Shown here piece by piece: positions 3,488 through 33,060 of a stretch of DNA of 33,060 nt. Numbering within the stretch: position 1 is the first letter of the stretch; each line of letters begins with the position of its first letter. The position numbers were made by a program, and so were the translations under genes. The notes below the pieces were generated by a model, which ran no database searches, was not told the DNA's origin, and saw only the letters and a program-made list of their open reading frames with translations. The stretch is taken from the IMG/VR virus record IMGVR_UViG_3300033143_001164, positions 1-33,060 of that record; one strand, written 5' to 3'. The DNA is from a virus.

Positions 3488-3533
3488 GGTGGATCTCCTA
3501 TATTGGCTAGAAAGTATTTTCCGGCCATAGTTA

Positions 3534-3562
3534 ATAGTACCATAGAGTAGCAACAATGTATA
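3534..3562 (-). promoter_or_regulatory. Leftward promoter for the small DNA-binding protein gene
   Basis: On the minus strand, TATACA and TACTAT are separated by 17 bases. The -10 lies about 45 bases from the ATG at 3487, leaving a short leader with GGAG. Confidence 0.55.
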
Positions 3563-3858
3563 CATGTTCCTTATACTCAGTTGTTATAAGAGAATCGTAG
3601 GACCTTCGGGCCGTCACGCCCCTCAGAGGGGGGACTATGGGGGGTAGGACCTTCGGGCCGCTCCTCCTCCTCGAGGGGGGACTATGGGGGGTAGGACCTT
3701 TCGGACCTTCGACCTGCCGCGTGATGGTCCCCACAGGGACGGCTGAACCGGGCTGCTTTTTAGTAATGATGGACCTTCGGGCTGGTAGGACCTTCGGGCC
3801 GAAGGACCTTTTTAGGACCTTCGGGCCTCCCCCCGGGGCGCCCCCAATCATATCCGAC

Positions 3859-4533: not shown

Positions 4534-4857
4534 TTACGCTTTAACGTGGTTGAATGTGTAGCCCCCTCGAGCGCTGTAGATTTGTCCGTAGGACAAACCT
4601 AACACCTTCGCCGCTTCCTTGTGGCTTTTATCCTTCAGGTCTCCGAATTTGCACCTTTGTGCATCTTCATCGGTCATCGACCTTTCAGATTTTGGACCAC
4701 GATCCCGAACCTTGATCGAATTGACCTTCGAGATTATCTCGTTGACCTTTCCAATCAGTTGGGCCGTGGTGGCCTTTTCACCCAATGTCTCAATTTTGAC
4801 CTTTACATTGGTTCCTTCAGAAACTACCTTGTCAGTATTTGACATAACATTCACCAT
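4534..4857 (-). CDS. Small putative helix-turn-helix DNA-binding protein, copy B
   Basis: The 107-residue product is a paralogue of the 88-residue protein at 3221-3487. It shares KVRDRGPKSERSMTD, the C-terminal helix-turn-helix-like HKEAAKVLGLSYGQIYSARG and the ending GYTFNHVK, whereas the N-terminal 45 residues differ and look like a longer amphipathic, probably oligomerising helix (ATTAQLIGKVNEIISKVNSI). Two starts are possible: MVNVMSNTDK with AAGG upstream, or the internal MSNTDK at 4845 with GGTGA. The leftward promoter at 5019-5046 lies upstream with a leader of about 150 bases. A DNA-binding regulator is the best reading, by motif rather than by known relatives. Confidence 0.75.
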   Translation of the reverse strand: MVNVMSNTDKVVSEGTNVKVKIETLGEKATTAQLIGKVNEIISKVNSIKVRDRGPKSERSMTDEDAQRCKFGDLKDKSHKEAAKVLGLSYGQIYSARGGYTFNHVKA

Positions 4858-6295: not shown

Positions 6296-6502
6296 ATGAC
6301 ATCACGTAGAATCAGGAAGCAACAAACGACAATCAAAATTACGAATGACTTGATCGAACGGACTAAGTCGGTTGTCATATATAAAGACGAACACGGTCGG
6401 TGGACGGTTCGTTGTTTCGATAAACGAGGTCGATATATCGGTGGTCGAAATAACACCAATCATCATGACGCGGTCAATTCGGCTAGGTTGTATATGTCGT
6501 GA
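6296..6502 (+). CDS. 68-residue basic protein (cassette 3)
   Basis: AAGGAG lies 8 bases before the ATG, in the conserved cassette leader. The product is strongly basic (MTSRRIRKQQTTIKITNDLI), with a central strand-turn-strand VVIYKDEHGRWTVRCFDKRG and a histidine-bearing C-terminal helix (NHHDAVNSARLYM). The central part resembles small beta-sheet nucleic-acid-binding folds with an exposed HGRWTV hairpin. Nucleic-acid binding is plausible from charge but not shown. The cassette is closed by a long hairpin and then a 14-base tandem repeat array. I recognise no named family. Confidence 0.65.
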   Translation: MTSRRIRKQQTTIKITNDLIERTKSVVIYKDEHGRWTVRCFDKRGRYIGGRNNTNHHDAVNSARLYMS

Positions 6503-6508
6503 TATGTC

Positions 6509-6537
6509 AAGTCGGCCACCTCAGAGGTGGCCGACTT
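6509..6537 (+). terminator. Long hairpin after cassette 3
   Basis: AAGTCGGCCACCTC and GAGGTGGCCGACTT are perfect inverse copies almost touching each other, giving a long, very stable stem with a small loop. No T run follows, so it may protect or process the RNA rather than terminate by itself. Confidence 0.6.
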
Positions 6538-6546
6538 CTGCCTCTC

Positions 6547-6658
6547 GACCAGCGCCTCCCGACCAGCGCCTCCCGACCAGCGCCTCCCGACCAGCGCCTC
6601 CCGACCAGCGCCTCCCGACCAGCGCCTCCCGACCAGCGCCTCCCGACCAGCGCCTCCC
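6547..6658. repeat. Eight tandem copies of a 14-base repeat
   Basis: The unit GACCAGCGCCTCCC is repeated eight times without a mismatch. Every frame across it is open on both strands because 14 is not a multiple of 3, so the proline/arginine-rich reading frames here are artefacts. It lies between the cassette 3 hairpin and the upstream element of cassette 4. Confidence 0.9.
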
Positions 6659-6674
6659 GCCTCCCGACTGGAAT

Positions 6675-6752
6675 CGAGAATAGTTTCATTCGTAACTAAT
6701 CTAAGAATTAATCGAAAATAAACGTGTACATTTCTGATCAACACGGTATTAT
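6675..6752 (+). promoter_or_regulatory. Cassette promoter 4 with conserved upstream element
   Basis: The upstream block (6675-6701) is followed by TGTACA at 6725, 16 bases, and TATTAT at 6747. The spacer TTTCTGATCAACACGG is typical of the family. Confidence 0.75.
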
Positions 6753-10917: not shown

Positions 10918-12363
10918 ATGGCCATTGAGCAAAATACTCTATTAGCAATTGGTACTCCTGGAGCTCAGATTATTCAGGAAACGTCTCTTCGTCATCCAGA
11001 CTATACTAAACAAGAGAAAAAATGGAATAGAATTCGTGACTGTGTCGATGGTAGTGATGCTGTAAAAGCTAAACGAACCACGTATTTACCTAGATTAACT
11101 GGTCAAAAAAATGATGAGTATAATGCTTATTTAACTAGAGCTTTATTTGTCTCGTTTACTGATAGGACCTTGAAAGGTTTGGTCGGTCTTATGACTGAGC
11201 GAGAACCCAATATAGAAGCCCCAGAAGAAATGAGAGCGTATTTTGAAGACACTGATAATCAAGGTACATCGTTCTTTGAACTCTTACGCTGGGTAACAGA
11301 AGAAGTAGTAGCTATGGGTCGAACTGGGTTATTGATAGACTTCCCAGTAGAAGGCGGGCGAGCATATACTGTTCCATATGCTGCAGAAAATATAATAAAT
11401 TGGAATACGGATACTGTTACGCGACAACTTAACATGTTGGTACTTCAAGAGCTTAAGTACTGGCCTCAACCTAATACAATGCATTTTCTATCTCGTTTTA
11501 TGGAATATAGACTTCTTAGATTATCTCAATCAACTGGGGAATATGAAGGTGAGGTCTGGAGACGGTCTACGACTGATACGTCATTAGGATCATTGAATAG
11601 GCGATCAATAATTGAACCTACCATACGTGGTGAATCCATAGATATTATTCCATTTACCTTTATCACTTCTGAAGGTATAACTACGGACCTTGTAAAGCCG
11701 CCTATGCTAGATATAGTAGATGTTAATTTATCTCATTTTAGAACTAGTGCCGATCTAGAGCATGGTCGGCATTTTACTGCACTACCTGTTCCTGTCGTTA
11801 CTGGTGTAGAGAGTGACGAACCTTTACGTGTGGGTTCTGAACAAGCTTGGGTTCTTCCGCCTCATCAAGCTAAAGCTTTTTATCTAGAATTTACAGGTCA
11901 AGGTTTACAGAGTTTAGAAACAGCTCTTAAAGAAAAATCAGACCAAATGGCTATTTTCAGTACACGTATGATGGATAATAGCTCTAGAGGTAGTGAATCT
12001 CCTGATAATGTACGTATTAGACATTCGTCTGATGCTGCAAATATGACACGTATTGTAGAAACTATAGAAAATGCGTTTAATCGTCACTACAATCTAATTA
12101 AAGAAATGGAGGGTATTCAAGGACCTCCCGTTAAAATTACACTTAATAAGCACTTTTTAGACGCTAGGATGCCTGCTTCTGAATTAAGAGAAATTGTTAA
12201 GGCGTTTGTTGATGGCGCTATTAATGAAGAAACGCTAATATTTAACCTCACACGAGGTGATATTATGCAAACAGATACGTTGGATAGAACGGTAGATAAA
12301 GATATACCTGGTCCACGTGAAGAAAATAAAAATGACATAACACCTACTGACGAGGATGAATAG
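10918..12363 (+). CDS. Portal protein (DUF4055 type)
   Basis: The 481-residue product forms the twelve-fold ring at the capsid vertex through which TerL pumps DNA. The sequence has the landmarks I associate with DUF4055 portal-like proteins: an N-terminal HPDYTKQEKKWNRIRDCVDG, then RTLKGLVGLMTEREP, RWVTEEVVAMGRTGLLIDFP, and a long helix-rich C-terminal half ending in an acidic tail (PGPREENKNDITPTDEDE). Position directly after TerL and before the scaffold confirms the role. The length is typical. The start overlaps the TerL stop region with one base between, so the pair is translationally coupled. Confidence 0.88.
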   Translation: MAIEQNTLLAIGTPGAQIIQETSLRHPDYTKQEKKWNRIRDCVDGSDAVKAKRTTYLPRLTGQKNDEYNAYLTRALFVSFTDRTLKGLVGLMTEREPNIEAPEEMRAYFEDTDNQGTSFFELLRWVTEEVVAMGRTGLLIDFPVEGGRAYTVPYAAENIINWNTDTVTRQLNMLVLQELKYWPQPNTMHFLSRFMEYRLLRLSQSTGEYEGEVWRRSTTDTSLGSLNRRSIIEPTIRGESIDIIPFTFITSEGITTDLVKPPMLDIVDVNLSHFRTSADLEHGRHFTALPVPVVTGVESDEPLRVGSEQAWVLPPHQAKAFYLEFTGQGLQSLETALKEKSDQMAIFSTRMMDNSSRGSESPDNVRIRHSSDAANMTRIVETIENAFNRHYNLIKEMEGIQGPPVKITLNKHFLDARMPASELREIVKAFVDGAINEETLIFNLTRGDIMQTDTLDRTVDKDIPGPREENKNDITPTDEDE

Positions 12364-12365
12364 TA

Positions 12366-13091
12366 ATGGCACTTAAATTTGTATTAGACAGCATTGATGA
12401 TTTGGATGAAGGTATTAAAGCCTTATATTCTAAGCATACGGACGGTAAATTCTATTTAGATGTAGAAGGCGCTGTATCTAAAACTAAGGTTGATGAATTT
12501 AGAGACAATAACGTTTCTTTAAAGCAGCAACTGGAAGATATGACTGATAAGTTTGGTAATATTGATTTAGAGAAATATACTGAGCTTATGGAAAAAGAAG
12601 CTTTAGATGACGGTAAAAAGCGCGTTACTATGGATAAAGTAGATGATATAGTAACCGAAAGAACGAATACTATGAAAGCTGAACATCAAAATCAGATTGA
12701 CGCTTTAAATACTGCCAATACCGGATTAAATGGTCAGTTAAATGGTCTTTTAATTGATGGGGCAGTTAGAGCTGCTGCTGTAGAGGCTAAAGTACGTGGT
12801 GCTGCTTTGGAAGATGTAGTTCTTCGTGCTGGAAAGACCTTTAAAGTAGTAGACGGTAAAGCTGTAGCTCACGATGGTGATGGTAAGGTAATGTACGGTA
12901 AAGACGGCTCTAATCCTCTTAGTACTGTAGAGTGGATAGGTGGTCTTAAAACTTCAGCGCCTCATTTGTTTGAAGGTTCTAGTGGCGGCGGAGCTGGTGG
13001 TGGACAGAAGAAGCCGGGTGATCAGCAAGTTGATACATCTACTATGTCTCCACTACAGAAAATTTCAGCGGGAATAGCTGCTTCGGAGTAA
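12366..13091 (+). CDS. Capsid scaffold protein
   Basis: The 241-residue product is acidic and helical, with the order typical of phage scaffolds: an N-terminal domain (KFVLDSIDDLDEGIKALY), a long coiled coil (about residues 35-115, with DNNVSLKQQLEDMTDKFGNI and TNTMKAEHQNQIDALNTANT), then a region containing DGAVRAAAVEAKVRGAALED. The tail is Gly-rich and basic (SSGGGAGGGQKKPGD) and would bind the inside of the capsid shell. It would guide procapsid assembly and then exit. It lies between portal and capsid genes, as expected. No protease domain is seen, so scaffold removal would need another route or simple exit. Confidence 0.85.
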   Translation: MALKFVLDSIDDLDEGIKALYSKHTDGKFYLDVEGAVSKTKVDEFRDNNVSLKQQLEDMTDKFGNIDLEKYTELMEKEALDDGKKRVTMDKVDDIVTERTNTMKAEHQNQIDALNTANTGLNGQLNGLLIDGAVRAAAVEAKVRGAALEDVVLRAGKTFKVVDGKAVAHDGDGKVMYGKDGSNPLSTVEWIGGLKTSAPHLFEGSSGGGAGGGQKKPGDQQVDTSTMSPLQKISAGIAASE

Positions 13092-15524: not shown

Positions 15525-15904
15525 GTTTAGTGAAGATAACATGGCGAACGCCTAAACCTTCATTTTCGTTTATACCCAAGGTTAGACGGAATGTAGCGCA
15601 ACGTGCATTAAATATAGCCCAATTAGTTTGGCAAGGTACTGTAGATAGAACTCCTGTAGCTTCTGGTGAATTAAGAGCTTCTTGGACTTTAAGTAAAGGT
15701 AGACCAAATTTTATCGATATTAGTGGTTCGTCTGTAGGAATACTCCCTGCACCTTCTATGCCTATAATACCTATAACTACTCTAGGTAGTGCTAAATTTT
15801 TTATATCAAACGGCAAATCTTATGTGGGGCATGTGGAATATGGATCTCCAACTAATACACCGCGTTTAATGCTGACTAGAGCGATACAGGCAATTGACCT
15901 TTGA
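15521..15904 (+). CDS. HK97 gp10-like tail completion protein
   Basis: The 127-residue product carries the classical signature of this family: a basic N-terminal helix (RRNVAQRALNIAQLVWQGTV), DRTPVASGELRASWTLSKG, and near the end a histidine-containing VGHVEYGSPTNTPRLMLTRA. The family joins the tail to the neck or completes the tail. The start is ATGA-coupled to the stopper gene, and the end overlaps the next gene's TTG start. The length is in the normal range. Confidence 0.85.
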   Translation: MSLVKITWRTPKPSFSFIPKVRRNVAQRALNIAQLVWQGTVDRTPVASGELRASWTLSKGRPNFIDISGSSVGILPAPSMPIIPITTLGSAKFFISNGKSYVGHVEYGSPTNTPRLMLTRAIQAIDL

Positions 15905-16304
15905 AACAGCGACAATAGAGTTAGAGTCCAGATTTGCGGATAACTGGCCACATACAGTCATAAAATGGCCTAATGTACAGTTAGATACAAAGGTTTTAGA
16001 TGAATGGGTTTGTTTTAATCATATACACGATAAATCTAAACTAGCTCAAATAGGTATAGTTAGTAATGTAAATAGATATTATGGAGTAATCGTAATACAA
16101 ATATTTGTAAAACCTAATATAGGGCTATTGAGAGCTAAAATACTGTCAGACTATGTATCTGATATATGGAGAACAACTCAATTTTCAGGTTTAATACTTA
16201 GTACGCCTGAAATAATTGAGGTTGGAATTTTAAAGGGTTGGTATCAATTAAACGTACAGAATAAGTACCAACGAAGTAGTTACGAAGTAATTAGTGCTAC
16301 ATAA
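15894..16304 (+). CDS. Tail terminator protein (DUF4128-like)
   Basis: The start is a TTG inside the end of the previous gene; no ATG near the front of the conserved region fits. The 136-residue product begins with ELESRFADNWPHTVIKWPNV, followed by a beta-alpha-beta body with RYYGVIVIQIFVKPNIG and LRAKILSDYVSDIWRTT, and ends KGWYQLNVQNKYQRSS. It caps the tail tube and fixes its length. Nearly the same domain recurs as the last 137 residues of the 564-residue protein at 18764-20458 (RFADNW, VKPN, DIWR, KGWY conserved), so the gene has been duplicated. Confidence 0.8.
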   Translation: MTFETATIELESRFADNWPHTVIKWPNVQLDTKVLDEWVCFNHIHDKSKLAQIGIVSNVNRYYGVIVIQIFVKPNIGLLRAKILSDYVSDIWRTTQFSGLILSTPEIIEVGILKGWYQLNVQNKYQRSSYEVISAT

Positions 16305-16519: not shown

Positions 16520-16903
16520 ATGGCTTTAACATTGGAAGTTGGCTTGCAAAATGCAGTTGCCGACGCAATTGGCACCTATATTGATGCTGGAACCGCCCCA
16601 GAACTAGTTTTTGAGACCAGTGGTGATGCCGAAGTTGCTACCATTATATTAAACGCTACAAACGCGTTTGGTGCTGCAGCAGCAGGTGTTATCACCATGA
16701 CGGGTCAGCCGTTACAAGATACTAATGCCGCTGGTGGTACTACGGTACAATTTTCAATCTATCAGAATGTAGGTCAGACTAATAAAGTTTTAGAGGGTAC
16801 TGTAGCTACGTCCGGTGCGGATATTAATATCAGCTCTACGGTAGTCGGTGCTACTGATACTGTTGAACTTACAACGTTCACAATTGCCGTACCAGCTTCA
16901 TAA
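16520..16903 (+). CDS. Predicted beta-sandwich virion protein (127 residues)
   Basis: GAGGAAAG precedes the ATG. The protein resembles a type common in environmental tailed phages that starts MALTLEVGLQNAVADAIGTY and then alternates beta-strands (AATIILNATNAFGAAAAG-like and TVQFSIYQNVGQTNKVL) with TV-rich ends (TDTVELTTFTIAVPAS). It is almost devoid of charged residues after the first 50 positions. Such proteins are usually found among structural genes and may decorate the head or tail, but no specific role is known. Assignment as structural is by composition and context. Confidence 0.65.
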   Translation: MALTLEVGLQNAVADAIGTYIDAGTAPELVFETSGDAEVATIILNATNAFGAAAAGVITMTGQPLQDTNAAGGTTVQFSIYQNVGQTNKVLEGTVATSGADINISSTVVGATDTVELTTFTIAVPAS

Positions 16904-18763: not shown

Positions 18764-20458
18764 GTGAAGTCATATACAAACACGTTTACTCGACCCGCTT
18801 TACATGGCGCCCGTATTCTATACGGCAGTTTTGCAGGTAAATCTAGTGGGACTAAAACATCGTCTGGTAGTCCATCTATACTTCAAGCTGTAGCATCAGG
18901 TTCAGCTAAAGTATTAAGATTTGCTACAGGTATAGTAGCAATAGCAGCAATTACTGCTACAGCTACAGCTAAGGTTATTAGTACTTCTGATGGGTCATCA
19001 TCTATAACTATACCTACAGCTGCGGGTGTAGCTAAAATTATAAAGACCTCGTCAGGGTCTCCGAATATATCAATACCTACTACATCAGGTGTAGCCACAG
19101 TTACACCTATAGGTGGAAAGTCATACACTATTACGTTTACTCGTCATGCTTTATATGGCAGTATACGTAAACCATATGGTAGTTTTGCAGGTAAAGTTTC
19201 TGGACCTACTAATGCTAACGGTACTCCGTCTATAATACTACCTACATCTGCGGGTGTAGCGGAAATAATTAAGACAGCCGTAGGTGGACCTTCTACACTT
19301 TTACTCACATCTACAGGTGTAGCGGAAGTTATAAAGACTTCGTCAGGGTCTCCTAGTATACTAATACCTACCACTTCTGGTATTGCAGTATTAGAACATG
19401 GGGCTACAGGTTCTCCGTCTACACAATTAATTACAGCATCAGGTGTAGCGAGTGCCGAAGGCATATTTAATGCTAATGGTTCTCCGTCTATACTATTACC
19501 GACGTCATCCGGGTCTGCGGTATTAGAGCGTAGTGCCGTAGGTAACCCATCTATACCATTACTTACTACTTCAGGTGTGGCAGAGGTTATAAAGACCTCT
19601 TTTGGATCGCCTTCTACTAGTTTAATCACGTCTTCAGGTTTAGCTAGAATAATTAATTTAGCTACAGGTAGTCCATCTACGACGTTAATTATAGCTAGTG
19701 GTTCTGCTGATCTTATATTAGGTGCATCTGGATCACCATCTACTCAATTAATAACGAGTTCAGGTATATCTAGAGTAATTAAAACTGCAACAGGTGCAGT
19801 TAGTACTCAGTTATTAATAGGTAGTGGTTTAGCTATAGATATACATATAGCTACAGGTTCTCCATTAATTATATTACCTACTAGTTCAGGACTAGCGTCT
19901 ATAGATAGAAATGCTAGTGGTTCACCTTTACTTACTTTACTAGTAGCTCAAGGTGTAGCCGATGTTAAAGGTCGTGTTAATGCATCAGGTTCACTTACAT
20001 TAATTATACCTACTGCTCAAGGTATAGCTATTACCCAATCGTACTCTATATCAGACTATGTTTCTGAAATTAGAGATTTACAATCTAGATTTGCGGATAA
20101 CTGGGGTATAACACCTATACAGTGGAATAATATACTGATAGAAACCAGTGGTTTAACTGAGTGGGTTAGGTTTATAAATGATTCAAAATCCTCTGTACAA
20201 AAAAGTATAGGGTCTAACCCAGATATATACAGATATTTTGGCGAAATAACTATAGAGATAAACGTAAAACCGAATAGCGGGGCTAATCGAGCATTACAAT
20301 TGGCGGATTCAGCAGCGGATATATGGCGTAGTGCAAATTTGACTAACATACATATGGACGTACCTGAATTAATCATAGACGGTATCAGAAAGGGATGGTA
20401 TCGAATTAATGTCGTATGCCCTTATTACAGAGACAGTATTCAATTTAGGAGTATTTAA
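18764..20458 (+). CDS. Repeat protein fused to a second tail terminator domain (564 residues)
   Basis: The start is GTG with a weak ribosome binding site. Residues 1-30 (YTNTFTRPALHGARILYGSF) recur as residues 119-149 (YTITFTRHALYGSIRKPYGS), so the front was duplicated. After each copy come units of about 21 residues with consensus GSPS, four variable residues, T, two, G-x-A: four in the first block (31-118) and thirteen in the second (150-427). Residues 428-564 are a full tail-terminator-like domain (LQSRFADNW, RYFGEITIEINVKPN, ADIWR, RKGWYRINV), matching the 136-residue protein at 15894-16304. The repeats are probably beta-structured and surface exposed. The gene stands right before the tail tube gene, so it likely sits on the tail. 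The fusion is unusual and the role unknown. Confidence 0.75.
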   Translation: MKSYTNTFTRPALHGARILYGSFAGKSSGTKTSSGSPSILQAVASGSAKVLRFATGIVAIAAITATATAKVISTSDGSSSITIPTAAGVAKIIKTSSGSPNISIPTTSGVATVTPIGGKSYTITFTRHALYGSIRKPYGSFAGKVSGPTNANGTPSIILPTSAGVAEIIKTAVGGPSTLLLTSTGVAEVIKTSSGSPSILIPTTSGIAVLEHGATGSPSTQLITASGVASAEGIFNANGSPSILLPTSSGSAVLERSAVGNPSIPLLTTSGVAEVIKTSFGSPSTSLITSSGLARIINLATGSPSTTLIIASGSADLILGASGSPSTQLITSSGISRVIKTATGAVSTQLLIGSGLAIDIHIATGSPLIILPTSSGLASIDRNASGSPLLTLLVAQGVADVKGRVNASGSLTLIIPTAQGIAITQSYSISDYVSEIRDLQSRFADNWGITPIQWNNILIETSGLTEWVRFINDSKSSVQKSIGSNPDIYRYFGEITIEINVKPNSGANRALQLADSAADIWRSANLTNIHMDVPELIIDGIRKGWYRINVVCPYYRDSIQFRSI

Positions 20459-20460
20459 TT

Positions 20461-21627
20461 ATGACCCTTGCAGCCAGTAATAGAGTAGGTTTGCGATTTA
20501 TCAAAGAAGTTACGTTTGGTGAAACGCCAACTACGCCAGCATTTAACGAACTTCGTTATACTGGCGAGAGTTTGAATTATAATATATCTAACGTCACGTC
20601 TGATGAAATTAGATCGGATAGAATGACTGCGGATTTAGTTCAGGTTGAAGCAGATGCTTCCGGTGATATTAGTGTGGAAGTTAGTTATGACGCGTATGAC
20701 TCATTACTAGAAGGAGTAATGGCTAGTACGTGGGGTACAGTTACAGCTGTATCTGAAGTAGATATAGATGCAGCTACTACTGATGATAGTTTCAATACTG
20801 TAGCAGGTGATTTTTTAGCTGACGGTATAGTGGTAGGTAAGTGGTTTAAAGTAGACGGATTTACAGATACTACTATCAATGGTTATTATAGAGCCGTTAC
20901 AGTTACGGCAGCCAAACTCACAGTAACCCCGGCAATTCCAGCTATAGAAGCAGCTGGTAATACTATTACTATGTCTGGATCTATGTTAAGAAACGGTACT
21001 ACAGAGTCTTCATTCTCAGTTCAAAAAGAGTTACAAGATATTGCACCTCCGTCATTTTTCTTGTTTAATGGTGTAAGAATGGGTCAACTTCAACTGTCGT
21101 TTGAAACTGGGTCAATTCTTACAGGTGTATTTTCTATGATGGGTCTAGGTGCCACTGTTAATACTACAGGCGTAGCTGGTCAGACGGAAGTACCAGCACC
21201 TACTAATGAGGTTATGAATGCAGTAAGTAATGTCCTTCAAATTGAGTTTGATGGAGTTGTTAGTACAGCATATTTCAATACTCTTAACTTGAGTATTAAT
21301 AACAATCTTCGTCCTCAAGATGCTATCGGTAATTTACCACATGTAGGTATAGCACTAAGTAGATTAGAAGTCACAGGTGAAGCGGAATTATACTTTCAAA
21401 ATAACGATGAGTATACTAAATATCTAAATGCTACGGCGTTTAGTCTATCATTTAGAGTAGAGGATTCTTCTGGTCAATCGTACGTATTTACTCTTCCCAA
21501 GGTTAAGTATGAAACAGGTGAAGTAGTTGCTGGTGGTTTAGATCAAGATGTATTTCAACGATCAACTATTAGAGCGATTAGAGATCCACTCACAGATTCA
21601 ATGATTCAAATCGATAAGTTTGTATGA
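20461..21627 (+). CDS. Major tail tube protein
   Basis: The 388-residue product begins with VGLRFIKEVTFGETPTTPAF followed by YTGESLNYNISNVTSDEIRS, the characteristic opening of phage tail tube proteins (Phage_tube_2-like). A beta-sandwich core (SVEVSYDAYDSLLEGVMAST) and a central inserted domain (FLADGIVVGKWFKVDGFTDT) follow. The closing strands contain LSINNNLRPQDAIGNLPHVG and a PKVKYETGEVVAGGLDQDVF end. Hexamers stack to form the tail tube. Gene order (just before the G/GT chaperones and tape measure) agrees. The gene starts two bases after the previous stop. Confidence 0.88.
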   Translation: MTLAASNRVGLRFIKEVTFGETPTTPAFNELRYTGESLNYNISNVTSDEIRSDRMTADLVQVEADASGDISVEVSYDAYDSLLEGVMASTWGTVTAVSEVDIDAATTDDSFNTVAGDFLADGIVVGKWFKVDGFTDTTINGYYRAVTVTAAKLTVTPAIPAIEAAGNTITMSGSMLRNGTTESSFSVQKELQDIAPPSFFLFNGVRMGQLQLSFETGSILTGVFSMMGLGATVNTTGVAGQTEVPAPTNEVMNAVSNVLQIEFDGVVSTAYFNTLNLSINNNLRPQDAIGNLPHVGIALSRLEVTGEAELYFQNNDEYTKYLNATAFSLSFRVEDSSGQSYVFTLPKVKYETGEVVAGGLDQDVFQRSTIRAIRDPLTDSMIQIDKFV

Positions 21628-22508: not shown

Positions 22509-25045
22509 TGGCTGAAGAAACATCACGAATACAGGTCGAAGTTGATGGATCGCGTGCTGTTGGAGATATTAATAGAATATCTGCTGCCTTTCGTAGATTA
22601 GAAGGTTCTGTAGGTAGAGTTAAAGCTCAGTTTGCAGGACTTGGATCAGCTACGTCTAATGCATTTAGTCGTATGAAATCTGGTGGAGGTATAGCCTTTA
22701 GAGCATTGGGTTCTGGATTTAGAGCTGTTCGTAGATCTATGCAACTTTTTGCCAATACATTTAAAGCCTTGTTAAAGGTATTCATAGCTGCTGGTGCAGC
22801 ATTTACTCTATTTGCTAGAAGTGTATTGGACACTGGTAATAAAATTAACAAATTTGTTAATACTTTGGTTATATTAAAAGGTAGTACGGCTTCAGCTATT
22901 ACAGAGCTACAGTTATTATTCGAATTATCTAATAAACTAGGTACGTCATTTACAGCTGCAGCTGCTCCGTTTGTTAAGTTCGCTGCCGCAGCAGCTGGAG
23001 CTTTAACGGATTCCGCTATTAGAGATGTATTTGAATCATTCGCTACAGTGGGTGTTGCATTACAATTAACTCAGTCAGAGGTAACAGGTGTATTTCTAGC
23101 GTTACAACAAATCGCATCTAAAGGCGTGGTTTCCATGGAAGAGTTGAGATTGCAACTAGCTGAACGTGTTCCAGGTGCTATGAGATTAGCAGCCCAATCT
23201 ATGGACATGTCAATGAAAGATTTTGAGAGAGCTGTTCAGCTAAGAACTATTAATGCTGGGGATTTTTTAGAGAAATTCGCTAAGAAACTTAAAGATGTAT
23301 ATGGTGATGCAGCCTTAATTGCTTCAGAGAGACTATTTGCTGACATACAGAGATTAGGTAATGCGTTTACAGCTTTTAAGACTGAAATATTTCAAGCTGG
23401 GTTTGAAGACGGTTTGAGAGATTTAGTTAGATCGGCTGCGGCTTTTTTAGAAAACAATCCAGAATTATCTAATGCGTTAGGTAAGTTTTCTAAAGAAATT
23501 TTTACTAGAGTAGCGGATTTTTTAAATTCATTATCTGCAGACAGAGTTATTTCTGTATTAAATACTTTGATAGGTGTATTTGAAACTCTAGTGAATGTTA
23601 TAAATACTTTAGCATTTGAAATACGTAAACTGTTTAATGATGACTTTAGTTCAGCTATTGACACAGTCTCCACTCAGACTAATAATTTGGAAGCATTGGT
23701 ACGTGAAAGACAGGAGTTACGTCGTACGGCGTTAGAGGGAGTGGTACTAGAAGGTTTTGGTTCTGATATAAGTCAATTTACACCTGTTACAGCTAATGAT
23801 ATGCAGATAAAAAATGCTGAGATGAGATTAGTGGGCTTAGATGAAAAAATTACTCTAGCTAGAGATTTATTGATTGCGGCTAGACTTAAGGCGGAGGAAT
23901 TTGGAGTTACTTTAGCAGCCCTACCTGAAAATGTATTCGATAGATTAGATACATTTGTAGGTGTTGCTCCTATTACTCTACCTAAAATAGAACCGCTACC
24001 CGATCAACGGGGTAGTAAGGGTCTAACTATAGATGATACTGCGCCTATGTCTCCTCAAATGACGGGTGACTTACAGGATGCTTTACAGACTGCTGAAAGA
24101 ATCGCTACTATGGGAATGCCTGAATTTGCTGAAAGGCATGCAGAAGTAGAGACTATGCGTAACTTACCTCAAGAGTTAATAGAATCGGCTAAACTTAATG
24201 ACTTAACTAGAGATTTAACCGCTTTAACAGAAGAATACTTGGTAGCCGAGAAAAAGCGATATGAATTAAAACAAGAACAACTTAAGTTAATGGAGGAAGA
24301 AGAACGACGATTAGCTAGTTTAACATCATTCCAGAAATCTCTTGAAGAATCATTTATATCTGTACAAGATGTAGCCATTAATATGGCTAAAAAGACCGAA
24401 GATGCTATAGTAGATATGGTGACTACAGGTAAAGCTAGTTTTTCTGAACTGGCCGAATCGATTATAGCGGATTTAACTAGAATGGCTATCCAAGCATTTC
24501 TTACTAGATATGTAATAGGACCTTTATTAGGTTATGCAGCTCAATCATTTGGAGATGCTCTTGGTGGGACCTTTAGTACTACTCAAACTTCAGGTAATGC
24601 TGTAGGTACTCCATCTGGATTAAGAAGTAGTGGAGGTAGAGGTCATTCAGGCGGAGTAGTTGGGCGATCTAATTTAAGTGAACGTAGTGGATTTAGTAAA
24701 TTGAGAAATGGTGAACGGTCTATCATAGTTGAAAAAGGTGAAGGTATATTTACTCAAGATCAAATGAAAGCTTTAGCTCCTATTTCTCGATTAGGGTCTA
24801 TATCTAGATCAGTTAATACTCAACCTACACTACCTGTAATTAATGTACAACCGTCTGGTATTAAGGTAGAGGTTATAAATAATACGTCTGAAGAAGCTAA
24901 TGTTGAAACAACCAGGTCTCCAGATGGAACTGAGTTAACTAGAATTATTATAGGCACTGTTAGCTCTAATTTAGCTAAGGACGGTGATCTATCTAAATTA
25001 TTACAAGGTAAATTTGGATTAAGAAATAAGACGGGGTTAAGATAA
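22508..25045 (+). CDS. Tape measure protein
   Basis: The 845-residue protein sets tail length and helps deliver DNA. It overlaps the chaperone stop by one base. The N-terminal 90 residues are basic and helical (VDGSRAVGDINRISAAFRRL). A hydrophobic segment follows (residues about 90-110, LLKVFIAAGAAFTLFARSVL). Next is a tape-measure N-terminal domain with LGTSFTAAAAPFVKFAAAAA, then QIASKGVVSMEELRLQLAER and VPGAMRLAAQSMDMSMKDFE. The C-terminal part contains a lambda H-like domain (SFQKSLEESFISVQDVAINM, then FSELAESIIADLTRMAIQAF) and a Gly-rich stretch. By the usual rule of about 1.5 angstroms per residue, it predicts a tail of roughly 125 nm. Confidence 0.93.
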   Translation: MAEETSRIQVEVDGSRAVGDINRISAAFRRLEGSVGRVKAQFAGLGSATSNAFSRMKSGGGIAFRALGSGFRAVRRSMQLFANTFKALLKVFIAAGAAFTLFARSVLDTGNKINKFVNTLVILKGSTASAITELQLLFELSNKLGTSFTAAAAPFVKFAAAAAGALTDSAIRDVFESFATVGVALQLTQSEVTGVFLALQQIASKGVVSMEELRLQLAERVPGAMRLAAQSMDMSMKDFERAVQLRTINAGDFLEKFAKKLKDVYGDAALIASERLFADIQRLGNAFTAFKTEIFQAGFEDGLRDLVRSAAAFLENNPELSNALGKFSKEIFTRVADFLNSLSADRVISVLNTLIGVFETLVNVINTLAFEIRKLFNDDFSSAIDTVSTQTNNLEALVRERQELRRTALEGVVLEGFGSDISQFTPVTANDMQIKNAEMRLVGLDEKITLARDLLIAARLKAEEFGVTLAALPENVFDRLDTFVGVAPITLPKIEPLPDQRGSKGLTIDDTAPMSPQMTGDLQDALQTAERIATMGMPEFAERHAEVETMRNLPQELIESAKLNDLTRDLTALTEEYLVAEKKRYELKQEQLKLMEEEERRLASLTSFQKSLEESFISVQDVAINMAKKTEDAIVDMVTTGKASFSELAESIIADLTRMAIQAFLTRYVIGPLLGYAAQSFGDALGGTFSTTQTSGNAVGTPSGLRSSGGRGHSGGVVGRSNLSERSGFSKLRNGERSIIVEKGEGIFTQDQMKALAPISRLGSISRSVNTQPTLPVINVQPSGIKVEVINNTSEEANVETTRSPDGTELTRIIIGTVSSNLAKDGDLSKLLQGKFGLRNKTGLR

Positions 25046-25461
25046 TGGCACTAGTTACTGCTACAGGTTCTCCATCAATATCTATACCTATAGCTCAAGG
25101 TGTATCAAAAATAAATTACGCATGGCCTAATACGCTACCTAACTTTTTTCAAGTCAAGGGTTTTATAGAAACTGGGGCCGTCAATGCAATTCGCTCTACT
25201 ATGGATGTAGGTCCAGATAAATTGAGACGAAGAACCACTACAGGGATTCGTAACCATGTAGGTAATATGTGGTTAACTACAACTCAATACACTACATTGA
25301 GAACGTTTTTTGAAGATACTATTTCTTTTGGAGTCATATCATTTACTATGAATGATGCCCATGGGACTAATAGGACCTTTCGATTTATACGACCACCCAG
25401 GTATACTACAATAGGACCAGATAATTGGCAAGTTAAATTAGAATTAGAGGAGCTTCCATAA
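25045..25461 (+). CDS. Minor tail protein with a grafted repeat at its N-terminus (138 residues)
   Basis: The gene overlaps the tape measure stop by one base. Its body (from about residue 25: YAWPNTLPNFFQVKGFIETG, then RSTMDVGPDKLRRRTTTGIR and YTTLRTFFEDTISFGVISFT) resembles a family of minor tail proteins found just after the tape measure gene, whose members usually begin near WP.TLP. Here the first 20 residues, LVTATGSPSISIPIAQGVSK, are a unit of the 21-residue repeat seen seventeen times in the 564-residue protein at 18764-20458. The extension looks like a repeat captured by recombination. The body probably sits at the tail tip hub. Confidence 0.75.
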   Translation: MALVTATGSPSISIPIAQGVSKINYAWPNTLPNFFQVKGFIETGAVNAIRSTMDVGPDKLRRRTTTGIRNHVGNMWLTTTQYTTLRTFFEDTISFGVISFTMNDAHGTNRTFRFIRPPRYTTIGPDNWQVKLELEELP

Positions 25462-25937: not shown

Positions 25938-26329
25938 TAGTTGATTGGGCTAAAAAATATATAGGTATGGAGTATAGGTTAGGTCATACTGGGCCTAATT
26001 ATTTCGACTGTTGGGGTGTAGTGGTTTGGATATACAAACAAGAATATGGTATAAATATAAATGAAGGGATATATTATATCACTAAAGAAGACAGAGCTAT
26101 ACAGTTAAGAAAACACATAGGATCATGGATTAAAGTTACAAGACCACGACCTGGTGACGGAATACTATTTATGGTAGGAGGTAAACTTCCACATTGCGGT
26201 ATTTATGTTGGAGATGGTAAAATGTTACACTCATTAGACGAACGTATGTCGTGTATTGAGCGGATTAATTCACCAAAATGGAAACCTCGTCTTGAAGGAT
26301 ATTATAGGTACAGCTCGAGTACTAGCTAA
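25934..26329 (+). CDS. NlpC/P60 cell-wall peptidase of the tail tip
   Basis: The 131-residue enzyme would cut stem peptides in peptidoglycan during infection, as do lambda K-type proteins. The catalytic cysteine is C26 in NYFDCWGVV, the histidine H87 in LPHCGIYVGDG, and the third residue probably H99 in KMLH. The fold order (AKKYIGMEYRLG, then PRPGDGILFMVG before the histidine) is normal, but it is shorter than lambda K because the N-terminal Mov34/JAB-like domain is absent. The start overlaps the previous stop (ATGA). It is followed by the J-like gene, and an I-type assembly gene is apparently missing or absorbed into J's front. Confidence 0.92.
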   Translation: MIVDWAKKYIGMEYRLGHTGPNYFDCWGVVVWIYKQEYGININEGIYYITKEDRAIQLRKHIGSWIKVTRPRPGDGILFMVGGKLPHCGIYVGDGKMLHSLDERMSCIERINSPKWKPRLEGYYRYSSSTS

Positions 26330-29300
26330 ATCTAACTTATTTAGTGAAGATGTTATGGAGGCATTCGTTCCTTCAGGCATGTCTATACGTGAAATAATTG
26401 GAAATGAATTCGATAATTACGCTGTTACTTTAAATAGTGATATTATTTCTGCGGATAATTGGGCTACTACGTTTGTAGATACTTTCGATGTATTGACTAT
26501 AGTTAAAGTACCTGCTGGCGATGATGAAAATGCATTAAAACGTTTCATATTGGTTATAGTAGTATTGATAATTGCATACTATGCTGGACCAGCTGCCGCC
26601 GAAGTAATTGGTGGTACCGCTGAATTTTGGACGTCTGCAATAGCGTTTGTAGGTACAGTGGTAATAAATTTAGTATTACCACCTTTAATGCCAGATGTGA
26701 CTGATGGAGCCAGTAAAAGATTAAATTCATTAACAGGTACTAGAAACTCATTCGCTCCATTTGAACCCATACCTATTTTATACGGTAAACATAGACTGTA
26801 TCCACCTATAGCCGCATTTCCATATACAGAAGTTATAGGTACGGATCAATATTTACACATGTTATACTGTGTAGGTTTGGGTACGTATGCTATAGATTCC
26901 ACTACTATGAAGATAGGGGATACTCCAGCGTCTGAATTTGAAGGTGTAGATATAGAAATTACTGATCAACCACTTCAGCCAGATATATTCGAGTTACAAC
27001 AGGCTTTAGTATTTAATCAAGATGCTACACCTGGAGATGAGTTTACTCGTACCACTGCAGCAGATACAGATACTATAGGGGTTGATTTTGTATTTCCGGG
27101 CGGACTAGTAAAAATAGATCAAGAAGATGGCGAAGAAAAACATGTACAAATACATTTCAGTGTAGATTTTAGAATATCCGGAAGTGCAGATCCATGGGTT
27201 AGTGTTAATACTCTTGACTGGGAAGAAGATACGAACGGCAGGCTATTAATTGTTGGAGGGTTAAATAATATAACCACTACAGGTAATCCACCTATTAAAT
27301 CGTCTTCTTACGGTTCTTTACGTGTATCTGGAGTAAATTCTGATTGGATCGCAGTAACTAGTAGAAGTAGAGACCCATTGAGATCCGGTTTTACGTTTAG
27401 TCCAGCAACTAGGGATACTTGGGACATACGAATAATTCGTCAACAGACTAATATAATGGGTGGAGCCGCTGTTACTAGTCTTGACGATATATGGATAGAG
27501 ATAGCTTCATCTGTAGCATGGACAGCCTTACGAAGTACTAAATATGAAGTAGGTGTATCTATTGGGCCGAATATAGCTACTTTTATAAAGGTACGTATTA
27601 GGGCTACTGATCAATTGAACGGTATTATAGATTCATTTAATCTTATTGCTGAAAAAGAGTTACGTACTTGGGATAAAACAGGTCAAACATTTACTGCGCC
27701 CGCAGCTACTAGGGATCCAGCGTGGGCTTATTTAGATATATTAACTGGTTTAGGCAACGCTCGTCCTATCACTAACGAGAGTAAATACATATGGCTAGAT
27801 GAATTATCTGATTGGGCTACAGCTAATGCTTCAGGTGGTAGATTCTATGATGAAGTTGTAGACTATCGTACATCTGTATTTAGTGCATTAACTATAGCTT
27901 GTGGAGTAGGTAGAGCGTCATTATCTACTAGAGATGGTAAGTGGACGGTTGTATTAGAACAAGCATCACCTACCCCTGTTCAATTTTTTACGCCAAGAAA
28001 TAGTTGGAATTTTAGCTCTGTTAAACGATTTGTTAATTTTCCACACGCATTTAAAATACGATTCAATGCTGAAGACTCTGATTATCAAGAAGATGAGGTA
28101 ATAGTATATGATGATGGATTTAATGTGGGTAATGCTGTTGATTTTGAAGTTATACAATTACAAGGTATAACAGATTCAGATCAAGCTTGGCGTACAGGTA
28201 AATATACTTTAGCTGCATTAAGACTTAGACCAGAAATATATACATTTAATTCTGACATAGAGCATATAGTAGCTCAGCGTGGTGATCATGTATTAGCATC
28301 TCATGATATACCTCTTTGGGGTAATAGTTACGGTCGTATTAAGGACATATCTGGTAATGTGGTAACTACGGATGAATCTGTCGATTTGGATGGAGGTACT
28401 ACATATGTAATGCGTATACGATTAGATGACGGTACATCAGTCATAGAAAATCTAACTTTACAGGGCGGGACTGATATATCTAGTCATACGTTTACTCCGT
28501 CTATACCTACTGGGGTACAAATCGGTGACCTATATATGATAGGTGAAGTAGGTTCCGAAACCCAGGAGTTGGTTATAATTTCTGTAGAACCTACTAAGGA
28601 CCTTTCAGCTAGAATTACGTGTGTGGACCACGACCCAGCTATATTGACAGCGGATGATGGAACACCTCCAGTATTTAGCCCTAATATAACTTTACCTATA
28701 GATCCTACTCAATTAAGACCGGCACCACCTTTTAACATTACTGCTAATAGTGATCAAATAGTACATACAGTCGATGGAGCAGGAACATTAAATCCACGTA
28801 TAGCTGTTAGTTGGGACTTACCTTCTAATTCTAGTGAACGTTGGCCTGCACTAAGAGCCGAAATTAGATGGAGAGAATATGATGTAACTGTAAACAGCGG
28901 AGATGCTGGTACATGGGTTGTAATATTTATACAAAATTCTTTTCAGGGTTTTGGCATAGTAGAAGATATAAATGTAGGGGTTGAATATGAGATTCAAGTT
29001 CGCAGTACTACAGAATATGATATACCTTCTTTATGGAGTGGCGCTATATTACACACTGTAGGTGGAGCTACTAGACTACCTCCAGCTGTGGACAGCGTAG
29101 TTACTAGTGATGAATTTGGAGGAGTAGAAGTAGATGTAGATTTTACGTCCTTAATAACTCGTACGGGTTCATATCTAGAAATAGCATATGGAACTGTAAA
29201 TGATAGAAATGATGGTGGAACAGTTATACGACCATTTCCAATACCTAGAAATTTAACAGATATAACCACATTAAAGTTTTTTCTTCCATTTACTAATACT

Positions 29301-32300
29301 ACTGCTAGGTATTTTTGGGCTAGATTAGTAGATATATATGGATCTCAATCCACATGGATTCCATCTTCTGCTACAGCGGGAATACTCGGTACTCCTAAAC
29401 AAGCAGTAGCTACTTTTTACTATATAAAAGCTATAGCTGGTACAGCCATAAAAAATGGATCCGGTCAATTAACTGTAGAAGCTCATAAAGTAGATGGAGC
29501 TAGTGATATATTACTATCTTCTGGAACTATACAACTGTTCGATCCGGGTAATAATATAGTTAATGTGGCTAATGGCTATGTAACTGGATCAGACGGATAT
29601 ACTGGTATACTGGATTCTGGAGATATAACTTCTGAGATAGTTATTACTCTTAAAGACGGTGCTGGCGGAACAGTTCTAGATACTATAACACTGGTAGATA
29701 TAGATGATGGGGCTGACTCTGTTTATGGGTATATAGAAGCTGTATCTACACTAGCTTGGGTTAGAGGTCCAAACAACGGAGCTTGGGAACCTCTAGCTAC
29801 ATCTACGAATCTAGATGTTACTATAGTTAAAGGTGGTACTGATCAGGCTAGATGGTCTAGACAGATAGATAGAGCCAGTGACGGTCTATTGACGGATGGT
29901 GGAGCGACTAATCATGTTAGTACTAATTTAAATACGTCAACTATAACACCTACAGTTACTGTATCTGGAAATATCGTAAATGTTCAGTATGACTATTTAT
30001 CCGGTAGCGATGTAGTTAGTGTATCAGAATCAGTTCATTCTGTTTTAGGAGGAGCTGGGGCTCAATTTTACTATATAAAACCAATAGACGGTACGGCAAT
30101 TAAGAACGGATCGGGTCAATTAACTATAGAGGCTCATAAAGTAGAGGGTTTAGTAGATACATTACTTTCTTCAGGTACAATACAGTTATTCGATCCAGGC
30201 GATAATATAGTAAATGTTGCCAATGGTTATGTAACTGGGTCAGACGGATATACAGGTATATTAGATTCAGGTGATATTAATGGTGACATAGTAATTACTC
30301 TTAAAGATGGTGTCGCAGGTGCTGCATTAGATACTATAACGTTAGTTGATGTAACCGATGGATTAGATTCAGTTAGTGGGTATATAGAGCCGGAAAACGG
30401 TCTAGCTTGGAGACGTGAGGGTACTGATGGAGCCTGGACACCGTCTCAATTAACTACTGATCTTGATGTTACATTCGTTCAAGGGGGTTCAGATGTAGCG
30501 CGTCAAGGCTATAGACTAACCCTTAATAGTACTGATGGGATTATAACGGGTACTGTCACAACACACCCGTTATCAGACCTTAATACGTCTCGTATAACTA
30601 TAACACCTACTGGATCTGGTAGTACTACGGTTTCAGTCAAGTTTGACTATACTTTTTCCGGTGATGATGCATCGGTATCTGAAACAGTGTTTTCTGTTAC
30701 AGGCGGTGGTACCGGATTACCTGGTCAATTTACATCATTAGATTATGATGATTTAGATACTACACAACTAGCTGCTGGCCAAAGTAGATATGCTATGTTG
30801 ACAGATGTAGGCGACAATACTACTGGTAGTCAAAATAATTTTCATCTTACTGATGGTATATTGATTAATAAGAAAGATATAGATGGAATTAACTATGCTC
30901 TTTTGTTTAGTGAAGTTAGAGAAGGGGACAGAATCGTATACAAAATATCTAATACTAGATGGTTTATCTTTAGTGTAGTTACTACGTTCATTACAATTGG
31001 TACAGGTGTAACAGAGGCGTATAAATTTGGAGTAGTATTAGATGATTCATTAGATCCAGACCCTACAGCAAATATTTCTACAGCCGCTGGTACTGATGTA
31101 AAATTTGAAATATATAGATCACAGTGGGATGTAGATCAAACCGCTGTTATAGACCCAGACTTTGATCGTACTCCGATAGGTGCTAGTTCTATACCTATGC
31201 AATTTACTGATAACGGAATCGCTCCTGATATAATAGATTTCGATCATTCTTTTCCAGGTAATAGCACATTTTGGTACGCTACACAAGAAATGGTTGCTAA
31301 CGGTAGTACGGATGTTAGCCCTGTTTATACCCCAGCCACCGTGGTTGTAGAGAGTAACGGTGTAAATAGTTCAAATTCCGTAAAAATGAAACTTGGGCCT
31401 GTTAGTGCTACGGGTGCTTCAGATTATGTACAGTCTATAATATTAACCCATCTTCACAGATTTAGGTCTAATTCAGGCGAATTTAATATAAAGATTAGAG
31501 CCAGAAACCAGTATACAGCTCTTAGTTCTGTATTTATAGAGATATACGGTTATTCAGAAGCTCGTAGTACTAGTATTATAGATACAGCTAGTGCAACACT
31601 CCAAATTCCAGCTAGTACTACTACTTGGACGGAATATAGTTTAAAGACCTTTAACGGTACATCAAATCCATCTGCCCAGTATTGGGAAGTTACTATTAGA
31701 ATGGTCGATATAGAGAGTATACCGTATTCTTCTGGAAATGGTAATCTATATGAAATGGAGTTTGACTCTATATTTGTAGATCAAATAATTAAAGATTTTG
31801 GTGAAACAGTCATAGCCAGTAAGGTAGAATCTGGATTAGTTCCAAAAGCTTTGTCTTCTGACGCCTCTAAATATTTACAAGGCGATGGTACGTGGAGTGA
31901 TCCGCCTGGAGGTTCAGCATCAGATTCTTTCAAAACCCATACTGTTACAGATACTGATTCAGGATATTCATGGTCTGCTACAGGGTCTATTATAGCGGAT
32001 TCTACTACGGATATTTTAACTTGGGTTTCTGGTAATGGTATAAATATAGATGCTGATTCTGCTAGCGATGCTATTCGTATAACCCTTGGATCACATAATC
32101 ACTCTGCTGTAGATATTACATCTGGAATTTTAGATGTAGCTAGAGGTGGTACTAATATAGGGTCATATGCTATAGGTGATATATTATATGCGTCAGCTTC
32201 AGGTGTATTATCTAAATTAGCGGTAGGTACTGATACTCACGTACTAACTTTATCCAGTGGATTACCTGTATGGGTTGCACCCTCAAGTGGTTATACTCAT

Positions 32301-33060
32301 CCTAATCATTCGGGTGATGTGACTTCTGTAGGGGACGGTGCACAGACTATTGTTATAGATGCAGTCACTTATGCCAAAATGCAGAATGTAATTGCTGATA
32401 ATAGAATTCTAGGTAATATAGCTGGAGCAGGTGGGATAGTTGCTGAATTAACCGCTACTCAAGTTCGTACTCTAATTAATGTTGAGGACGGTTCTACAGC
32501 AGATCAAACCGCTGGAGAAATCGAGGCAATTGTAAGTCACGATAATCTAGTTGATTTTGTCTCGCAAGAACATATACGTTGGGATTTAACTGGTGCCGAA
32601 GATGTTCATGCTGATAGATTCGGTGGTGGAGCTAATTTTGCAGATACAGTATTAGATAGACCTAGATTCAGTGATTTCGCTACTAAACACCAAGCTGTGG
32701 CTGCAATAGCTACTACAGTTATAAGTTATTCAGCAGGTCAATCAGTCGCTCTTACTATGGGCGCTGTTAATATAAGTACCTTGACCATTAATAGTTGGCC
32801 TGCTACCGGTTGGCGTGGTGACATGGAAATAGAAATAATCCAAAACACTACGCCTCGCACAATCAACTGGTCAGGAGCCAATGTTGAATGGGTAAATGGG
32901 GTTCCTCCAGATTTATCGACTGCATCCGAACGCTATATCATACATCTATCTACACGTGATAGTGCTACTGTAGTTATCGGTTCATATGCATCAGATAGTT
33001 CGATAGGTGTAGTATCAGTATTTGGTCGTAGCGGTGCTGTAATTGCTTTACAAGCTGATT
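26292..33060 (+). CDS. Giant J-like tail tip attachment protein with fibre modules (partial, over 2250 residues)
   Basis: The frame is open from here to the right edge. The proposed TTG start (KDIIGTARVLAKSNLFSEDV) restores the I/J N-terminal beta-grasp-like domain; the first ATG is at 26355. A hydrophobic region follows (residues about 84-130, FILVIVVLIIAYYAGPAAAE), then the J landmark IPILYGKHRLYPP, the tail hub (VFRSG-like ALTIACGVGRASLSTRDGKW), SVKRFVNFPHAFKIRFNAED, and fibronectin-like repeats around 28740-29390. Two tandem copies of a 217-residue domain start near residues 1037 and 1254. The C-terminal part has tail-fibre modules (YLQGDGTWSDPPGG, GDILYASASGVLSKLAVGTD, TATQVRTLINVEDGS, SVFGRSGAVI). 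It closes the tail tip and determines host binding. Confidence 0.9.
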   Translation, partial: MKDIIGTARVLAKSNLFSEDVMEAFVPSGMSIREIIGNEFDNYAVTLNSDIISADNWATTFVDTFDVLTIVKVPAGDDENALKRFILVIVVLIIAYYAGPAAAEVIGGTAEFWTSAIAFVGTVVINLVLPPLMPDVTDGASKRLNSLTGTRNSFAPFEPIPILYGKHRLYPPIAAFPYTEVIGTDQYLHMLYCVGLGTYAIDSTTMKIGDTPASEFEGVDIEITDQPLQPDIFELQQALVFNQDATPGDEFTRTTAADTDTIGVDFVFPGGLVKIDQEDGEEKHVQIHFSVDFRISGSADPWVSVNTLDWEEDTNGRLLIVGGLNNITTTGNPPIKSSSYGSLRVSGVNSDWIAVTSRSRDPLRSGFTFSPATRDTWDIRIIRQQTNIMGGAAVTSLDDIWIEIASSVAWTALRSTKYEVGVSIGPNIATFIKVRIRATDQLNGIIDSFNLIAEKELRTWDKTGQTFTAPAATRDPAWAYLDILTGLGNARPITNESKYIWLDELSDWATANASGGRFYDEVVDYRTSVFSALTIACGVGRASLSTRDGKWTVVLEQASPTPVQFFTPRNSWNFSSVKRFVNFPHAFKIRFNAEDSDYQEDEVIVYDDGFNVGNAVDFEVIQLQGITDSDQAWRTGKYTLAALRLRPEIYTFNSDIEHIVAQRGDHVLASHDIPLWGNSYGRIKDISGNVVTTDESVDLDGGTTYVMRIRLDDGTSVIENLTLQGGTDISSHTFTPSIPTGVQIGDLYMIGEVGSETQELVIISVEPTKDLSARITCVDHDPAILTADDGTPPVFSPNITLPIDPTQLRPAPPFNITANSDQIVHTVDGAGTLNPRIAVSWDLPSNSSERWPALRAEIRWREYDVTVNSGDAGTWVVIFIQNSFQGFGIVEDINVGVEYEIQVRSTTEYDIPSLWSGAILHTVGGATRLPPAVDSVVTSDEFGGVEVDVDFTSLITRTGSYLEIAYGTVNDRNDGGTVIRPFPIPRNLTDITTLKFFLPFTNTTARYFWARLVDIYGSQSTWIPSSATAGILGTPKQAVATFYYIKAIAGTAIKNGSGQLTVEAHKVDGASDILLSSGTIQLFDPGNNIVNVANGYVTGSDGYTGILDSGDITSEIVITLKDGAGGTVLDTITLVDIDDGADSVYGYIEAVSTLAWVRGPNNGAWEPLATSTNLDVTIVKGGTDQARWSRQIDRASDGLLTDGGATNHVSTNLNTSTITPTVTVSGNIVNVQYDYLSGSDVVSVSESVHSVLGGAGAQFYYIKPIDGTAIKNGSGQLTIEAHKVEGLVDTLLSSGTIQLFDPGDNIVNVANGYVTGSDGYTGILDSGDINGDIVITLKDGVAGAALDTITLVDVTDGLDSVSGYIEPENGLAWRREGTDGAWTPSQLTTDLDVTFVQGGSDVARQGYRLTLNSTDGIITGTVTTHPLSDLNTSRITITPTGSGSTTVSVKFDYTFSGDDASVSETVFSVTGGGTGLPGQFTSLDYDDLDTTQLAAGQSRYAMLTDVGDNTTGSQNNFHLTDGILINKKDIDGINYALLFSEVREGDRIVYKISNTRWFIFSVVTTFITIGTGVTEAYKFGVVLDDSLDPDPTANISTAAGTDVKFEIYRSQWDVDQTAVIDPDFDRTPIGASSIPMQFTDNGIAPDIIDFDHSFPGNSTFWYATQEMVANGSTDVSPVYTPATVVVESNGVNSSNSVKMKLGPVSATGASDYVQSIILTHLHRFRSNSGEFNIKIRARNQYTALSSVFIEIYGYSEARSTSIIDTASATLQIPASTTTWTEYSLKTFNGTSNPSAQYWEVTIRMVDIESIPYSSGNGNLYEMEFDSIFVDQIIKDFGETVIASKVESGLVPKALSSDASKYLQGDGTWSDPPGGSASDSFKTHTVTDTDSGYSWSATGSIIADSTTDILTWVSGNGINIDADSASDAIRITLGSHNHSAVDITSGILDVARGGTNIGSYAIGDILYASASGVLSKLAVGTDTHVLTLSSGLPVWVAPSSGYTHPNHSGDVTSVGDGAQTIVIDAVTYAKMQNVIADNRILGNIAGAGGIVAELTATQVRTLINVEDGSTADQTAGEIEAIVSHDNLVDFVSQEHIRWDLTGAEDVHADRFGGGANFADTVLDRPRFSDFATKHQAVAAIATTVISYSAGQSVALTMGAVNISTLTINSWPATGWRGDMEIEIIQNTTPRTINWSGANVEWVNGVPPDLSTASERYIIHLSTRDSATVVIGSYASDSSIGVVSVFGRSGAVIALQAD

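Follow-up and report, generated by a model that had tools for sequence, protein, structure and literature searches.

A second tail terminator fused to a 21-residue repeat array as a candidate neck appendage of a siphophage

We identified two diverged tail terminator copies in the structural module of an uncultivated siphophage, the second of which forms the C-terminus of a protein that has a long array of 21-residue repeats in its N-terminal part. The fusion is encoded by the last of several extra genes located between the first terminator and the tail tube gene, and its array and two other extra genes recur together in unrelated phages. We hold it to be reasonably probable that the protein forms an appendage at the neck (head-tail junction), with the C-terminal domain docking and a beta-rich arm displayed outward. 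The placement at the head-tail junction is inferred from the terminator domain alone, and the join would probably fix an exposed arm at the virus neck, in a new arrangement of known parts.

The window, by which we mean the whole stretch of DNA analysed, corresponds to one IMG/VR virus record, 33,060 bases long. Its structural module is related to that of Xanthomonas phage Xp15, with identities of 52% for the terminase, 48% for the tube and about 60% for the major capsid protein. Where Xp15 has its gene for the central tail fibre J, the window has a very long ORF of at least 2268 aa (26256-33059) that is truncated by the end of the record. Elsewhere in the window, two small ORFs on the minus strand (3221-3565 and 4534-4857) are clearly paralogous, having both VRDRGPKSERSMTD and SHKxAAxxLGLSYGQIYSARGGYTFNHVK in common, and possibly encode DNA-binding proteins. 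A tandem repeat at 6500-6690 leaves several frames open on both strands, one of which reads RLPTSASRPAPPDQ, and is probably a repeat at the DNA level.

The fused terminator domain and its genomic site

BLASTP aligned the stand-alone terminator with residues 438-560 of the fusion protein (57 of 125 positions identical, 46%, E 2e-31), and both proteins matched PHROG 179 'tail terminator' with an E value of 1.8e-14 each. PF13554 matched the stand-alone copy only, and weakly (24 bits, below the 27-bit cut-off). In the alignment, the fused domain begins with an ATA codon (20048-20050) at the position where the stand-alone homologues start (Table 1). The C-terminal domain of an AlphaFold2 model of the fusion is predicted confidently over most of its length, with values of about 90 in most 10-residue blocks and dips to 62-67. 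Using Foldseek, this domain was matched to the terminators of phage T1 and FCWL1 (9jlf_D and 9l0e_N, TM 0.79-0.80 of the target) as well as to lambda gpU. An alignment of seven family members has eight invariant columns, every one of which is preserved in both copies of the window, and both genes lie between Neck1 (15521) and the tube gene (20461). At 564 aa the fusion is not a small single-domain protein, unlike the 136-aa stand-alone copy; however, small size is not a strict property of terminators, since published examples with additional domains exist (PMC11784142).

Table 1. Features of the fusion gene, its genomic site and the lone repeat unit in the window
Feature	Position	Strand	Basis or remark
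Stand-alone tail terminator, 136 aa	15894..16304	+	TTG start; 11-nt overlap with Neck1, as in L013 and L044
Cassette gene, 62 aa	16316..16504	+	Four other phages have homologues upstream of arrays
Cassette gene, 127 aa, PHROG 3758 virion structural protein	16520..16903	+	Homologue upstream of array in five other phages
Cassette gene, 110 aa	16906..17238	+	Partial homologue at the end of L045
Inserted gene, 199 aa	17238..17837	+	No family match found in Pfam or PHROG
Inserted gene, 297 aa	17847..18740	+	N-terminal third 46% identical to a Microcystis phage hypothetical protein
Fusion gene: two caps, array of 17 repeat units, tail-terminator domain at the C-terminus	18764..20458	+	564 aa, GTG start; ORF, homology and model
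First cap, ~30 residues (KSYTNTFTRPALHGARILYGSFAGKSSG)	18767..18856	+	DNA repeat families D7/D8; low model confidence
Repeat block A: 4 units of 21 residues, units 1-2 degenerate	18860..19111	+	Unit searches and reading of the translation
Second cap, ~30 residues (KSYTITFTRHALYGSIRKPYGSFAGKVSG)	19115..19204	+	DNA repeats; pLDDT <50 at residues 116-151
Repeat block B: 13 units; a 2-residue expansion after 2 of them widens the spacing to 23 residues	19214..20044	+	
Fused tail-terminator domain	20048..20455	+	Identity to 15894-16304, PHROG 179, fold match, junction DNA
Tail tube protein	20461..21627	+	PF18906 E 2e-46; directly after the single terminator in L013
Lone repeat unit, 69 nt (23 codons)	25051..25119	+	In-frame after codon 2 of tail gene 25045-25461

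A preliminary description of this DNA had proposed the 564-residue frame, the homology of its C-terminal part to the stand-alone terminator, 17 units of 21 residues and a duplicated cap. Frame, coordinates and length are correct, the homology is confirmed by the alignment and PHROG results, and the fold of the fused domain agrees with that of solved tail terminators. The 17 units are likewise present, four before and 13 after the second cap, and the caps (18767 and 19118) share 81% DNA identity over 42 nt (family D7). The same description had allowed for the fusion being an error, which would be indicated by close phages carrying array and domain as separate genes. No such case was found; the nearest relative spanning the region carries a single bare terminator and no array.

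Direct searches of viral_contigs with the full fusion or the window terminators found no relatives. Relatives were reached indirectly, using the terminase, gene 16520 and the tube as queries. In L013 (terminase 84%, tube 76.5%), one stand-alone terminator lies immediately 5' of the tube gene, and the order of terminator followed by tube is also seen in L021, L024, L025, L027 and Xp15. The window therefore contains approximately 4.2 kb of extra DNA between its first terminator and the tube gene, comprising the genes at 16316, 16520, 16906, 17238 and 17847 together with the fusion, while the flanking genes preserve the ancestral order. In L014 the site is occupied by a sulfotransferase-like ORF (12043-12903, FPKSGNTWVRLF motif recognized by eye) and a structural-looking gene, and thus the terminator-adjacent site accepts different cargo. 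Homologues of 16316 and 16520 follow the terminator in L044 (terminase 91%), where other genes then extend to the contig end. Identity to the L044 terminator is 77% for the stand-alone copy of the window, compared with about 44-46% between the two window copies, which indicates a duplication older than the split between the window phage and L044. A search with the fused domain and L013 returned L013 and L074 only, the latter having an ordinary single terminator, and a PF13554 survey of 299 genomes of the Paenibacillus phylum yielded one ordinary match only. No paper on a fused or second tail terminator was found in a phrase search of the literature.

The two copies could have exchanged roles, the fused one being the working tube terminator and the stand-alone one an extra protein that forms a second ring, acts as a head-side spacer or is redundant. 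The fused copy adjoins the tube gene, as does the single terminator of L013, and groups weakly with L013 in a tree (80/83). However, clade tests rejected no alternative to this grouping, and the trees did not date the duplication relative to L013. The stand-alone copy, moreover, begins with TTG and overlaps Neck1 as its relatives do, and a comparison with L044 shows it to be strongly constrained (dN 0.14, dS 1.06). We consider an exchange of roles unlikely and favor the neck appendage, in which the stand-alone copy may keep ordinary tube capping.

The repeat array and its spread among phages

A mechanical unit filter accepts fifteen units, to which inspection by eye adds two degenerate ones near the N-terminus (residues 33 and 54); the spacing is 23 residues in two cases and 21 otherwise. 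Residues 1-430 contain 137 identities at a lag of 21, compared with 40.6 +/- 5.8 in 2000 shuffles (maximum 64). The arrays of the window and of other phages share the consensus A[ST]G[AS]PS[IV]xLPTxSGxAxVIKT. The array had been described as expanding, which the unit comparison does not support: the best pair in the window reaches 74% DNA identity, the mean over pairs is 56%, and several units are nearer to units of other phages than to those of their own array. The units are old and diverged and show no sign of recent expansion. In a pooled comparison of units, whose pairs are not independent, dS (0.97) exceeds dN (0.56), which suggests mild constraint on the array protein.

The array is modeled as an all-beta structure with a 21-residue period (pLDDT 84). 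Compared with the PDB, the best match to this model has an E value of 0.016 and a low probability, while beta-solenoid-type proteins (bactofilin, ice-binding proteins, SufB) recur. We estimate a length of approximately 8 nm for a solenoid of 17 coils, and a greater length for a more extended arrangement. No family was found for the array in Pfam or the PHROGs, no match among INPHARED phages and no credible match among PDB sequences. Homology to any known collar or whisker protein was likewise not found in Pfam, PHROG or PDB sequences, and no recognizable binding fold was found in the array. Designed 'Pizza' propellers were matched by the window array in phmmer (E 3e-8), which was rejected as a periodicity artefact because 42 equals 2 x 21 and because no PDB match was obtained with the array of L011, a member of the same family. 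Pfam matches of the arrays to zf-CHCC, YlzJ and Wza_C were all below cut-off, single stretches being insignificant alone, and none of the unit-pattern matches in the bacterial genomes L041-L043 was confirmed by the repeat profile.

Nine further IMG/VR contigs contain long arrays of the 21-residue unit: L009, L010/L039/L052 (one record), L011, L012, L040/L046 (one record), L047, L048, L049 and L050, of which L047 and L048 look like one phage. The array is thus not tied to the terminator but is also found on unrelated proteins. Its partner domains are LamG-type (L049, L039), Gly-rich (L040) or unassigned (L009, L011), and no PHROG 179 terminator was found on the sequence pieces searched from eight array records. 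A 16520 homologue is found upstream of the array gene in five distinct phages, in four of which it is preceded by a 16316 homologue. The presence of the array on unrelated proteins, usually downstream of these two homologues, implies a structural cassette that moves between phages. Insertion of a single unit into an existing tail gene is directly visible at 25051-25119, where the L013 homologue reads ATGGCTGCATGG and the window reads ATGGCA, the unit and GCATGG; this clean event exemplifies how the repeat family spreads. An 1872-aa protein at L039:2782-8400 (IMGVR 3300037246_000376) alternates LamG-like domains, blocks of approximately four units and basic spacers of approximately 30 residues, a layout resembling the cap-plus-four-units block of the window.

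These other arrays bear on a further alternative, namely that the array protein belongs to the fibres or surface proteins of another part of the virion and carries the terminator domain by chance read-through, with no docking at the neck. The array genes of L010, L012, L040 and L047, whose proteins have no terminator domain, are close to lysis genes (roles assigned by eye), and this region is a common place for fibre genes. However, the fused domain retains all eight family-invariant columns and has a branch length (0.76, compared with 0.49 for L013) like that of other copies, which does not resemble a passenger in decay. We therefore judge chance read-through to be rather improbable and return to docking at the neck as the preferred reading.

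A candidate neck appendage

Terminators form hexamers in which a beta-sheet lines the tube lumen and is flanked by helices (PMC11784142). In the mechanism we propose, a structural cassette would have entered the site upstream of the tube gene, and its array gene would have fused in-frame with a copy of the terminator. This copy could then dock in or on the hexameric terminator ring atop the tail tube, where it would form a second ring or share one with the stand-alone copy, while the array, attached before the N-terminal helix, would point outward as an arm. By analogy with lactococcal neck passage structures, which bear host-binding modules (PMC6669499), the likely role of this arm would be weak adhesion to cells or particles, or stabilization of the neck by stiffening it. 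N-terminally tagged T5 terminator p142 is soluble and monomeric, and the N-terminus of this terminator also contributes to subunit contacts (PMC11784142), so that a large N-terminal fusion could hinder formation of a homo-ring.

An independent parallel is found in the distant phage L071 (697-1734, IMGVR 3300029925_000016), where a 345-residue gene product is encoded between Neck1 and the tube. Its C-terminal part is a terminator, matching PHROG 179 at residues 235-342 (E 4e-11) and exceeding the 27-bit cut-off of PF13554 with 29.7 bits. An N-terminal helix-like segment is separated from the terminator core by a Laminin_G_3-like stretch of the concanavalin type (residues 40-189; 19 bits, below its cut-off), and this split gene is the sole terminator gene on the 6.6 kb contig. 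Together with the window, L071 implies that an extra domain was put on a terminator at least twice, adjoining the terminator's N-terminal helix in both cases, which makes the use of a terminator as anchor for an exposed domain more credible. More tentatively, and with less than even confidence, terminators might serve as a general docking platform, a terminator or its duplicate being made the anchor for interchangeable surface modules, such as the repeat array of the window or the LamG-like domain of L071, with a repeat-array cassette mobile among unrelated phages as a supplier of such modules. If so, the head-tail junction of the window phage would have two terminator types, one of them with arms.

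The remaining alternatives concern the gene itself. It is very unlikely that internal initiation yields a bare terminator besides the fusion: the ATA at 20048-20050 stands at the homologous start and is one base from ATG, but ATA is a rare start, in-frame ATG, GTG and TTG codons are absent there and a ribosome-binding site upstream of 20048 is not apparent by eye. Joining of separate array and terminator genes by an assembly or sequencing error, conceivable because repeats may mislead assemblers and the fusion is known from one metagenomic contig with no second copy, is least probable of all, as the frame is continuous, a stop and a start codon would both need to be lost, the units (at most 74% identical) are too diverged to confuse assembly easily and the flanking genes are in ancestral order.

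Comparison with known terminators and neck appendages

Neck appendages are known in few phages and are mostly dedicated collar proteins. Extra-domain terminators, domain duplication and neck appendages are each known, while a second array-bearing terminator was found neither in the literature searched nor among the relatives. The fused domain shares sequence profile, fold and place in the gene order with terminators of the lambda gpU type (PHROG 179/PF13554). The members of this family that we examined have 125-136 aa in contrast to the 564-aa fusion, and the window differs in having a second copy in one phage, preceded by 430 residues of caps and repeats. Myophage sheath-binding terminators and the duplicated fold of PVC16 (PMC11784142) also show an extra domain on a terminator and fold duplication; however, their extra domain either touches the sheath or is a second copy of the fold, whereas the extra part in the window is an array of repeats, and the second terminator copy has a gene of its own. 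The lactococcal neck passage structure, T4 whiskers and XM1 collar spikes (PMC6669499, PMC10491603) are alike in the proposed location and weak-binding role, but they are built from dedicated collar proteins that form coiled-coil or other fibres and lack a terminator domain, and homology to them was not found.

The closest counterparts of the array itself are the array proteins of L009-L012, L040 and L047-L050, which have the same repeat consensus and, in five phages, the same upstream gene; they differ from the fusion in having LamG-type, Gly-rich or unassigned partners in place of a terminator domain. This defines a repeat family outside the matches of Pfam, PHROG and INPHARED that recurs on different structural proteins of uncultivated phages. 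If the neck reading is correct, anchoring through a duplicated terminator would offer siphophages a simple, testable route to appendages at a fixed six-fold position.
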